Source: Lactiplantibacillus daoliensis (GTDB lineage: Bacteria; Bacillota; Bacilli; Lactobacillales; Lactobacillaceae). Taken from it: a DNA stretch of 64,000 nt. The DNA lies in NCBI RefSeq assembly GCF_005405005.1, contig NZ_BJDH01000001.1, positions 186,001-250,000 of the forward strand, given 5' to 3'. This document shows, piece after piece, positions 46,661 through 49,288 of the stretch. Position 1 is the stretch's first letter, and every line of letters begins with the position of its first letter. The notes under the pieces are model-generated. The model saw nothing but the letters and a program-made list of their open reading frames with translations. It did not search any database and had not been told where the DNA came from. The translations under genes were made by a program, and so were the position numbers.

Positions 46661-46707
46661 AAAAGCAGACCATAATCAACAATATTTGCTGATTATGGTC
46701 TGCTTTA
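46661..46707. terminator. Terminator of the aminotransferase-dehydrogenase operon
   Basis: A perfect 17-bp stem (46662-46678 with 46690-46706), A- and T-rich on both sides. Confidence 0.9.
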
Positions 46708-46728: not shown

Positions 46729-47721
46729 TTAAAATGCATGTTCAGTTTTCTGACCATTTAAAATTGTTAAAACATCATCTAAACTAATATCGACCATATT
46801 TTTAACGGCCAAGTTCGTGTAGAACCCAACGTGGGGAGTCAAAATGACGTTTGGCATTTGCATTAATTGCGCAATCAAGCTATCAGTCAAGACTTCACCT
46901 TGATGGTTCTGGTTGAATAAGGCTGCTTCGCCCTCAACTGTATCCAAGGCCGCACCGGCAATTTCACCAGCTTTCAAGGCAGCAACTAAATCGGCCGTGA
47001 CAATTACTGGGCCACGGGACGCATTAATAATGAACGCGTCTGACTTCATCAATTTCAACGCCGAAGCGTCAATCAAGGCCTTCGAGGTCTCATTTAAATC
47101 AACATGTAACGTCACTACGTCAGCTTGCTTCAACAAGTCTTCCTTAGTATCAACATAAGTCAACACATCCGTTAACTCGTCGTGATGGACAACATCGTAA
47201 GCAATCACTTTGGCCCCTAAACCGTGGAATAACTTGGCGACCGTCCCGCCAATCCGGCCAGCCCCAATCACACCAACAGTCAACGAGCGAATTTCACGTG
47301 CTTGCAACCCGGCCCACTGGAAGTTTTGTTGACTAATGCGACTGTCAAATAGTTCTAGGTTCCGAATCAAACGCATTGTCTGGGTCACAGCCATTTCGGC
47401 AACAGAGTTCGGTGAGTAGGCTGGAACGTTGGTGACCGTTAAGCCCGCAGCTTTGGCGGCTGGAATATCAATCGTATCCACACCAGCGGTCCGACTCGTA
47501 ATTTGTTTCAAACCGTAGTCGGCTAATTTTTGATAAACGGTTGGATCGTCCCCAATCGCACTACGTTGTTGAATCACGACCCCATCGTAGCCCTTCGTTA
47601 AGTCCGCCGTTTCTGGGTGAAATTCTAAATCGTTGGTATCCACTTGGACGTCATTCTTAGCAGCCCAATCTTTAATCGCACTTTCTTCATCATCGCGTAC
47701 ACTGTACATTAAAATTTTCAT
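46729..47721 (-). CDS. D-2-hydroxyacid dehydrogenase
   Basis: 330 residues of the D-LDH/D-hydroxyisocaproate dehydrogenase family. The Rossmann motif GAGRIGG is near residue 151, and the catalytic Arg (NASRGP), Glu (DTVEGE) and His (LTPHVGFYT) are present. It reduces 2-keto acids to D-2-hydroxy acids with NADH; bulky keto acids such as phenylpyruvate or ketoisocaproate are plausible. Its start overlaps the aminotransferase stop by one base, so the two enzymes act in series: amino acid to keto acid to D-hydroxy acid. Confidence 0.9.
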   Translation of the reverse strand: MKILMYSVRDDEESAIKDWAAKNDVQVDTNDLEFHPETADLTKGYDGVVIQQRSAIGDDPTVYQKLADYGLKQITSRTAGVDTIDIPAAKAAGLTVTNVPAYSPNSVAEMAVTQTMRLIRNLELFDSRISQQNFQWAGLQAREIRSLTVGVIGAGRIGGTVAKLFHGLGAKVIAYDVVHHDELTDVLTYVDTKEDLLKQADVVTLHVDLNETSKALIDASALKLMKSDAFIINASRGPVIVTADLVAALKAGEIAGAALDTVEGEAALFNQNHQGEVLTDSLIAQLMQMPNVILTPHVGFYTNLAVKNMVDISLDDVLTILNGQKTEHAF

Positions 47722-48920
47722 TAATTCGTCTCCGTTTCAGTTTCTTTACTAGCAACATAGTCGCCAATGCGTTGAACAGCCGTTTGTAGATTTTCCATTG
47801 AAGCCGCGTAACTAATCCGTACATAGCCTTCACCACCAGGGCCAAATGAACTCCCAGGAATCAAGGCAACCCGAGCATCATGGGCCAATTCACGACAGAA
47901 TGCCATACTATCTTGTGGCAAACCAGCTGGAATTTTACTGAACAGGTAGAAGGCCCCTTCTGGCTTAGCTGACTTGAAACCAAGTTTGTTTAAGGCTTCA
48001 TACAAGTAATCCCGCCGTGCCAAGTATTCCTTCTTCATGACTTGCGCATCATCCATCCCGTTGCTTAAGGCTTCCGCAGCTGCGGCCTGTGCATTGGCGG
48101 TCGTAGTCGTCACTGTAAATTGATGAATTTTACCAAGTTGCGCCGTAATTGCTTTCGGTGCGCACATGATCCCAATTCTCCAGCCTGTCATCGCGTGGGA
48201 TTTTGAGACCCCATTTAATAGAATCGTTTGTTCTGGCAAGTATTTGGCAATTGACACATGGGCTGCACCATAAGTCAATTCACTGTAGATTTCATCGGAT
48301 AGCACAAAGATTGGTTTATCAGCTAAGACGTCCGCCAATGCCTTCAAATCAGCATCACGGTAGGTGACACCAGTTGGATTGGATGGGAAGTTTAGAACAA
48401 CCGCCTTGGCCTTGGGATGATCAGCCAATGTCTGAGTCAATTGTTCCGGCGACAAAACAAAGTCATTCTTTGAGGTATCCATGAAGACCGGCACCGCACC
48501 ATTGAGTTTGGCGATAGCAATGTACAATGGGAAGATCGGTGTTGGAATCAGCACTTCATCGCCGGGGTTTAAAATTGAACTCAACGCGGTGTAAATCCCG
48601 CCGGTCGCGCCGGCGGTAATAATGACTTCATTTTCAGGATCATAGTGGACATCGTACTTCTCCGCTAAGAAATTCGCAGCAGCAGTCCGTAAGGCCATCG
48701 TCCCATTTGATGGCGCATAATGACTTTCGTTATTTTTAATACTTTGAATGGCCGCGTCTTTAACGTGTTCAGGAGTGTTAAAGTCAGGTTCGCCAAGGGT
48801 TAAACGAACAATTCCGGGAATATTTGCGATTTCTGCGTTAAACGCGAGGATATCGGATGGTTGAATGGCACTAAGCTGGTTGTTCATGTGTTGCACTAAT
48901 GTTTCAGAATCAATTGACAT
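47721..48920 (-). CDS. PLP-dependent class I aminotransferase (aromatic/aspartate type)
   Basis: 399 residues from ATG 48920 (GGAGG seven bases upstream). The frame is open for 33 more codons, but that part is leader RNA. The PLP-binding Lys lies in NGVSKSHAMTGWRIG, with NFPSNPTG and SDEIYSELTY also diagnostic. It belongs to the PatA/AraT/aspartate group. The aromatic run in the upstream leader peptide suggests aromatic amino acids as substrates. Confidence 0.9.
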   Translation of the reverse strand: MSIDSETLVQHMNNQLSAIQPSDILAFNAEIANIPGIVRLTLGEPDFNTPEHVKDAAIQSIKNNESHYAPSNGTMALRTAAANFLAEKYDVHYDPENEVIITAGATGGIYTALSSILNPGDEVLIPTPIFPLYIAIAKLNGAVPVFMDTSKNDFVLSPEQLTQTLADHPKAKAVVLNFPSNPTGVTYRDADLKALADVLADKPIFVLSDEIYSELTYGAAHVSIAKYLPEQTILLNGVSKSHAMTGWRIGIMCAPKAITAQLGKIHQFTVTTTTANAQAAAAEALSNGMDDAQVMKKEYLARRDYLYEALNKLGFKSAKPEGAFYLFSKIPAGLPQDSMAFCRELAHDARVALIPGSSFGPGGEGYVRISYAASMENLQTAVQRIGDYVASKETETETN

Positions 48921-48989: not shown

Positions 48990-49166
48990 AAACAAAAAAC
49001 ACACCCGCTGAAAATTCAAAGGGTGTGTTGCTTAAAAATCTTATTTATAGCCACCCTTGGAATTTTCGAACATCCATGGGCGCCATTGAATCGCAAAAAG
49101 CCTTTGGCAAGCCGCATCGATGCAAACATCGGATTCGTGTTTGCACCTATGCAGCAGGCACAAACA
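48990..49166 (-). promoter_or_regulatory. Attenuator leader with competing GGGTG/CACCC arms
   Basis: In transcript order: hairpin GTGTTTG/CAAACAC (49167-49161 with 49143-49137), hairpin GATG/CATC (49130-49119), arm GCGATTCAAT (49094-49085) that pairs with codons 4-7 of the leader peptide, then GGGTGG (49056-49051), CACACCC (49027-49021) and GGGTGTG (49006-49000) with T6. The middle arm can pair with the first (antiterminator) or the last (terminator), never both. Confidence 0.75.
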
Positions 49167-49229
49167 CTAGCGAAAATACCAAAAGTAAAAGCTAGTTGAA
49201 GTTTTTGGGCGATTCAATCGTAATGACAT
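49167..49229 (-). CDS. Aromatic leader peptide (20 residues), putative attenuator sensor
   Basis: ATG 49229 has GAGGAG eight bases upstream. The peptide ends SFYFWYFR, six aromatic codons in a row (TTT TAC TTT TGG TAT TTT, codons 14-19, 49190-49173). Those codons form exactly the loop of a CTAGC/GCTAG hairpin (49195-49191 with 49171-49167), whose right arm includes the stop codon. Codons 4-7 supply the left arm of a 10-bp stem with 49094-49085. A ribosome slowed on Phe, Tyr or Trp codons would change which downstream hairpins form. Such peptides are typical sensors in ribosome-mediated attenuation. Confidence 0.8.
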   Translation of the reverse strand: MSLRLNRPKTSTSFYFWYFR

Positions 49230-49259
49230 ATCATTAGCTCCTCATCAATTATTAATCTA

Positions 49260-49288
49260 ACTATAACAATCCAAATAATCACTGTCAA
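49260..49288 (-). promoter_or_regulatory. Promoter of the leader-aminotransferase-dehydrogenase operon
   Basis: On the minus strand TTGACA (49288-49283) and TATAGT (49265-49260) are spaced by 17 bases. The leader to the aminotransferase ATG is then about 330 nt. Confidence 0.85.

Follow-up and report, generated by a model that had tools for sequence, protein, structure and literature searches.

The genome of Lactiplantibacillus daoliensis carries an operon for an aminotransferase and a 2-hydroxyacid dehydrogenase, and the question raised by this locus is whether the RNA transcribed ahead of the two genes controls them and, if so, which signal it reads and what the operon is for. We analysed a window of 64,000 nucleotides (the whole stretch of DNA, 64 kb), in which the locus is encoded on the minus strand. 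A preliminary description had proposed a leader-peptide attenuator that senses aromatic amino acids and sets the output of phenyllactate. The elements from the promoter to the end of the operon are the following:

49260..49288, minus strand: sigma-70 type promoter TTGACA-17-TATAGT (11/12 matches; TG before the -10 hexamer)
49232..49243, minus strand: Shine-Dalgarno site GAGGAG of the leader peptide, kept within the genus
49167..49229, minus strand: leader peptide frame of 20 codons, MSLRLNRPKTSTSFYFWYFR-stop, ending in SFYFWYFR-stop in 21/21 genus genomes
49173..49190, minus strand: regulatory codons, six consecutive aromatic ones (Phe-Tyr-Phe-Trp-Tyr-Phe)
47721..48920, minus strand: class I/II aminotransferase, operon gene 1 (PF00155, 3e-70)
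46729..47721, minus strand: D-isomer-specific 2-hydroxyacid dehydrogenase, operon gene 2, overlapping gene 1 (PF02826, PF00389)
46663..46705, minus strand: strong terminator with a 20-pair stem 3′ of gene 2, which closes the two-gene operon

The promoter, the frame (49229-49167) with its GAGGAG site and the six aromatic codons (49190-49173) had been pointed out before and are all present. When all six frames were scanned, this was the only run of at least six Phe, Trp or Tyr codons in the 64 kb window. Among solved structures, the aminotransferase is closest to chain 4my5, a putative amino acid aminotransferase, followed by the aromatic aminotransferase 1dju and by aspartate aminotransferases; its score against NF005588 (570.8 bits) lies slightly below the cut-off of 576. 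The best solved chain for the dehydrogenase is the D-lactate dehydrogenase 4xkj (1.2e-126).

The leader RNA is strongly structured, with a folding z-score of -5.55 and none of 200 shuffled sequences equally stable. The aromatic codons take part in this structure: CUUUUGGUA pairs with UGCCAAAG, and their complement lies 50-60 nt further 3′. We distinguish a codon helix, a stem A and seven consecutive strands (the swap tests compare genera and are defined below):

49209..49220, minus strand: 5′ strand of stem A, codons 4-7, covariation within the genus
49170..49185, minus strand: strand X, CUUUUGGUAuuuUCGC, codon side of the codon helix (swap test 0/2000)
49157..49167, minus strand: strand 1, GUGUUUGUGCC, starting at the last base of the stop codon (1:2 swap test 0/2000)
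49137..49147, minus strand: strand 2, GGUGCAAACAC, partner of strand 1 or strand 3 (swap tests and covariation)
49112..49128, minus strand: strand 3, UGUUUGCAUCGAUGCGG, pairing with strand 2 or, via its tail, with strand 4 (2:3 swap test 0/2000; 3:4 31/2000)
49102..49115, minus strand: strand X′, GCGGcUUGCCAAAG, complement of the aromatic codons (codon-helix swap test 0/2000)
49083..49094, minus strand: 3′ strand of stem A, covariation within the genus
49071..49084, minus strand: strand 4, GGCGCCCAUGGAUG, anti-antiterminator (4:5 swap test 0/5000)
49050..49067, minus strand: strand 5, GAAAAUUCCAAGGGUGGC, partner of strand 4 or strand 6 (4:5 and 5:6 swap tests)
49010..49027, minus strand: strand 6, CACACCCUUUGAAUUUUC, shared by the antiterminator and, as its 5′ arm, by the terminator (5:6 swap test 0/5000)
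48994..49006, minus strand: strand 7, GGGUGUG plus U6, 3′ arm and tail of the terminator (double changes in the genus, 9/12 terminator pairs)

Several of these pairings exclude one another, namely 1:2 and 2:3 just 3′ of the stop codon, and 4:5, 5:6 and the terminator 6:7 further downstream. Strand 2 of the hairpin GUGUUUGUGCC/GGUGCAAACAC has an alternative downstream partner, UGUUUGCAUC. These two exclusive partners of the internal hairpin, as well as the pairing of the aromatic codons with 49115-49102, go beyond the preliminary description. The latter had noted three arms (GGGTGG, CACACCC and GGGTGTG) followed by T6; arms and T-run are there, but the antiterminator, which pairs GAAAAUUCcAAGGGUG (49067-49052) with CACCCUUUGAAUUUUC (49025-49010), is far longer than GGGTGG/CACACCC. 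In the window leader the helix energies are -14.4 (1:2), -11.7 (2:3), -7.5 (3:4), about -13 (4:5), -18.7 (5:6) and -11.1 kcal/mol (6:7), helix 3:4 being the weakest link when set against 4:5.

The head of the operon was found in 21/21 Lactiplantibacillus genomes, each of which keeps the order of promoter, Shine-Dalgarno site, frame, structured leader, terminator and aminotransferase gene. Both promoter hexamers are unchanged throughout (21/21), and the Shine-Dalgarno site is followed in every genome by a frame of 19-20 codons whose end is constant and whose preceding codons are variable (21/21). Conservation of frame and aromatic run among related leaders had been named as a check on the attenuator proposal, and both are kept in 21/21 genomes. 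Leader nucleotides 40-73, which comprise the run, the stop codon and the next strand, are identical in 21/21 genomes, third codon positions included. The RNAalifold consensus of the genus leaders contains 64 pairs, and its covariation term is -3.66 kcal/mol; 97.3% of the cells are paired on it (94.6% in shuffled alignments), and 52 double changes are seen as compared to 15.6 after shuffling. The double changes are located in stem A (three pairs) and in the terminator (9/12 pairs). As for the remaining helices, 4:5 shows a G-U/G-C/A-U exchange at one pair, all nine pairs of 3:4 are invariant, and the changes seen in the antiterminator within the genus are all one-sided. No leader of this kind precedes three paralogous aminotransferase genes of the genus.

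The helices were also compared between genera. In the swap test, the aromatic codons of each leader were paired with the complement of every other leader, and the permuted means were compared with the observed one. The codon helix X reaches -15.5 kcal/mol with its own partners and -9.8 kcal/mol (sd 0.6) with swapped ones, and none of 2000 permutations attains the observed mean; codon changes between genera are tracked by the complement (for instance UUUUGGUA, UAUUGGUU, UUUCGUUU and UUUAGCUA). The same holds for helices 1:2 and 2:3 (0/2000 each), for 4:5 (0/5000) and for the antiterminator 5:6 (0/5000; -17.7 with own against -11.0 kcal/mol with swapped partners), while the observed value of 3:4 is reached by 31/2000 permutations. 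With stem A it is reached by 427/2000, which makes this stem a negative control for the method and also limits an earlier claim: the 10-bp stem between codons 4-7 and 49094-49085 is present and covaries in the genus, but no covariation of it was detected between genera, and we retain stem A as a genus feature rather than as a family-wide element. Pairs were also counted on a multi-genus alignment of 20 sequences. The codon helix and 1:2 together are 97.6% paired, with a covariation score of 0.425 as compared to 0.228 after shuffling (0/500), and 2:3 scores 0.247 against 0.164. Helices 1:2 and 2:3 compete for a shared strand and cannot coexist, and covariation in both of them marks a switch.

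The CTAGC/GCTAG hairpin, whose loop had been said to be exactly the aromatic run, does exist, with a loop of 19 nt that consists of the run plus one C. It was considered as the main element and set aside: it is near-invariant in the genus, but it is the codon helix that persists between genera. In some genera a short form of the leader occurs (six loci), with a loop of a few bases under the codon helix and the same operon downstream; here the codon hairpin measures 38-44 nt and a separate 1:2 hairpin is absent, so that the seven-strand scheme is not universal.

How far does this RNA extend beyond the window and its operon? A first covariance model (R1), built from 16 genus leaders, matches 79/398 genomes of the family and 18/40 genera, and 40 of its loci were read for leader and downstream gene. 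Their aromatic leaders include NTYFYFWFFHKCL, NAYYYFRFFR and NTYYYYWFFK, and they precede the aminotransferase operon, transketolase plus shikimate dehydrogenase, chorismate synthase, or an ABC transporter that was typed as TrpX with a score of 338.7 bits, below the cut-off of 390. Two weak R1 matches ahead of APC permease genes, at which no leader peptide was found, were left out. A separate locus (L173) places an aromatic leader, MNNWHTMQNFFNFAYFM (FFNFAYFM), before an APC-family amino acid permease, which suggests a further class of target.

A second model (R2) was derived from the 20-sequence multi-genus alignment. It matches 241/395 Lactobacillales genomes and 62/80 genera (E up to 0.01). 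In the class it matches 25/300 genomes (E up to 1e-4), all of them Lactobacillales except 4 genomes of two genera; the loci read outside the order are genuine by context, with transketolase, the same aminotransferase or DAHP synthase downstream, and in Sporolactobacillus the same leader stands ahead of the same aminotransferase/dehydrogenase operon. An aromatic leader was found in 17/17 loci of a first order-level sample, followed by shikimate-pathway genes, TrpX-type transporters, or a transporter gene adjoining chorismate synthase. Sixty further loci comprise 29 with TrpX-type genes downstream, 13 with shikimate dehydrogenase, 3 with DAHP synthase and 9 with branched-chain genes, the aromatic classes being assigned by tblastn to reference proteins and the branched-chain ones, provisionally, by reading protein starts. 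At the branched-chain loci the scaffold is kept and the codons are those of Ile (NIIISIIR, LIISIIR). The nine Ile-coded leaders precede what appear to be genes for threonine dehydratase, branched-chain aminotransferase, acetolactate synthase and a branched-chain ABC transporter. At the 29 TrpX-type loci, the last nine leader residues add up to 80 Phe and 58 Tyr, with no Trp; the presence of Phe and Tyr codons and the lack of Trp codons before these genes call their assigned tryptophan specificity into question.

Within the genus, R2 finds a single copy in the window's own genome and a second match in 13/20 of the others, 8 of these being strong. Two strong second copies precede a TrpX-type operon; a weak one precedes a major-facilitator-like gene and chorismate synthase.

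In the trp and pheA attenuators of E. coli, the regulatory codons lie in the first alternating strand and the position of the ribosome decides the outcome. The leader studied here likewise has its regulatory codons within alternating helices; unlike the E. coli systems, it has extra alternating helices between the codon helix and the terminator, and its scaffold serves both Phe/Tyr/Trp and Ile. The Proteobacterial Trp and Phe leader families of Rfam do not match it, and at gathering thresholds no Rfam family matched anywhere in the window. Aromatic regulation in low-GC Gram-positives has reportedly been treated by Panina and colleagues in 2003 (as cited in PMC2494555). A closer likeness in mechanism is Rli60 of Listeria, a leader-peptide attenuator of ilvD whose expression rises when branched-chain amino acids fall (PMC5864092). 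Rli60 shares the leader peptide, the terminator/antiterminator switch, the on state at starvation and even an initial description as a small RNA; it differs in its 13-residue peptide, in sensing branched-chain amino acids and in a published model of four segments. Leader peptides before hisS and hisZ were found by Naville and Gautheret in bacilli, where T-boxes are usual (PMC2965389). Those leaders contain histidine codons and belong to aminoacyl-tRNA synthetase type genes, and the main text of that survey has no aromatic example (PMC2965389).

One Rfam family does bear on the RNA. Four relatives of the window leader reach the gathering score of RF02863 (70-89 bits as compared to 61), while the window leader itself, at 18.2 bits, is a non-member by that model although R1 and R2 link both. 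The RF02863 model (sRNA_2410, Enterococcus sRNA 2410) starts inside the regulatory codons, leaving the start of the leader frame outside, and holds the codon helix, the 1:2 hairpin and strand 3; the entry lists it as a small RNA gene and gives it no function. Judged by these shared elements, RF02863 is the same RNA core as the attenuator. Its seed, to go by the name, was probably taken from sRNA_2410 of E. faecium Aus0004, a 195-nt RNA with two transcripts on Northern blots and no known function (PMC5593968), which, in our reading, would be an attenuated leader that passed for a small RNA. The earlier statement that no example had been described for this operon stands for the open-licence PubMed Central literature, with the qualification that the RNA class has this functionless Rfam entry.

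The filing of RF02863 suggests an alternative, namely a small RNA acting in trans on targets of its own, with a frame that is incidental or a peptide that is the active product. The description of the family and the bands of sRNA_2410 agree with it (PMC5593968), but a leader transcript that ends at the terminator would give the same appearance. Moreover, nearly every locus read stands upstream of amino acid genes, codon content tracks the downstream pathway and the terminator/antiterminator pair covaries, all of which makes a trans-acting RNA very improbable. A T-box riboswitch (RF00230), or a derivative of one, shares the niche of antitermination of Firmicutes amino acid genes and would respond to uncharged tRNA rather than to the ribosome; AAGGGUGGC resembles the T-box sequence AGGGUGG and sits, as in T-boxes, in the 5′ strand of the antiterminator. 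The tRNA-binding architecture was not detected in the window leader, and cmscan, with E allowed up to 10, did not match it to RF00230. In addition, the motif becomes GGGCGGC in several members of the genus and is missing from strand 5 of most other genera, and a conserved frame and codon helix are foreign to T-boxes; we regard this explanation as scarcely credible.

By sequence, the leader has these features of a ribosome-dependent switch: a frame with Shine-Dalgarno site and codon run, a terminator, a compensated antiterminator, and regulatory codons inside an alternating helix. The proposal of a leader-peptide attenuator sensing aromatic amino acids is borne out to the extent that frame, codons, codon helix, terminator and antiterminator are kept with compensatory changes across genera. 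We estimate at roughly 80% the probability that the leader is a ribosome-mediated transcription attenuator which turns the operon on during a shortage of charged tRNA for Phe, Tyr or Trp. If the aromatic supply is ample, the ribosome would reach the stop codon, cover strand 1 and depart; 2:3 or the codon helix would then hold strand 3 off strand 4, and 4:5 would form and leave the terminator 6:7 to halt transcription. An early stall in the aromatic run would keep the codon helix open and strand 1 uncovered, 1:2 would form, strand 3 would hold strand 4, and strand 5 would pair with strand 6, so that transcription continues. A ribosome covers about 15 nt on each side. Strand 1 starts with the final base of the stop codon; a ribosome at the stop would mask it, and a ribosome halted on the first four aromatic codons would leave it unmasked. 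The helix energies agree with this scheme but do not settle it.

The sign of this response, on at starvation, is predicted from gene content and precedent: relatives of the leader precede biosynthesis and uptake genes, and induction at aromatic shortage is therefore to be expected. The same attenuator could in principle work the other way round, with finished translation giving read-through, so that an abundance of aromatic amino acids would turn on their conversion into D-hydroxy acids, phenyllactate among them. In textbooks the two enzymes together lead from amino acids to hydroxy acids, the chain of seven strands can be read in the other parity, and equilibrium folding is compatible with it. 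Such a sign, however, would be perverse for the biosynthesis and uptake genes under the same RNA core, and the position of strand 1 at the stop codon, where it would be masked by a finishing but not by an early-stalled ribosome, points to the other parity; we consider the inverted response unlikely. At equilibrium the terminator is preferred in all ribosome states modelled (stalled, free and at the stop), which are not separated in this way, and the choice would have to be kinetic if the starvation-induced model is right. Across the order, the RNA is most likely a sensor of amino acid starvation.

What the operon contributes is the least certain step. The expected sign is opposite to the disposal of surplus amino acid, and the idea of phenyllactate as the output fares poorly on gene content as well. 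Prephenate dehydratase was found in 0/21 genus genomes and in 14/14 control genomes, and chorismate synthase was not found in the window's own genome nor in three others; Lactiplantibacillus thus appears unable to make Phe de novo. Leader and operon are nevertheless kept in 21/21 genomes. Given induction by lack of aromatic amino acids and no synthesis of phenylpyruvate, the aminotransferase is most simply a recovery enzyme: the dehydrogenase would supply the keto acid from the hydroxy acid, and the aminotransferase would then make the amino acid. The operon thus most likely works toward aromatic amino acid recovery rather than toward phenyllactate. More tentatively, and at somewhat less than even odds, a recodable amino acid sensor (Phe/Tyr/Trp or Ile) may be ancestral to the Lactobacillales and may govern aromatic recovery from D-hydroxy acids in Lactiplantibacillus, in which case phenyllactate, besides being an antifungal waste product, would serve as a reserve that can be recovered; codons and paired complement would have been exchanged together and the sensor placed before biosynthesis, uptake and recovery genes.

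Ribosome-mediated attenuation is itself a mechanism of known kind. New, as far as we searched the open-licence literature, are the order-wide class, the aromatic/Ile recoding, the additional alternating helices, the interpretation given here to RF02863 and the occurrence of such a leader ahead of this operon. According to a 2010 survey, no leader-peptide system had been known outside Proteobacteria and Actinobacteria until it added its histidine cases (PMC2965389). Such attenuation is held to be rare in Firmicutes, the territory of T-boxes, and here one covariance model covers 62/80 of the Lactobacillales genera sampled. The assignment would give a function to an Rfam family lacking one, and it would let transporter specificity be read off leader codons, as with the Phe- and Tyr-coded TrpX-type leaders. 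It would also open the physiological role of phenyllactate in lactobacilli to direct testing.

Two further occurrences of the downstream genes were noted. Three Bifidobacterium genomes have an aminotransferase that is 57-58% identical and stands without the leader, which suggests gene exchange with lactobacilli. At a locus of another genus (L155), a D-2-hydroxyacid dehydrogenase gene followed directly by a TrpX-type transporter gene lies behind the aromatic leader AVFFNSNFR.
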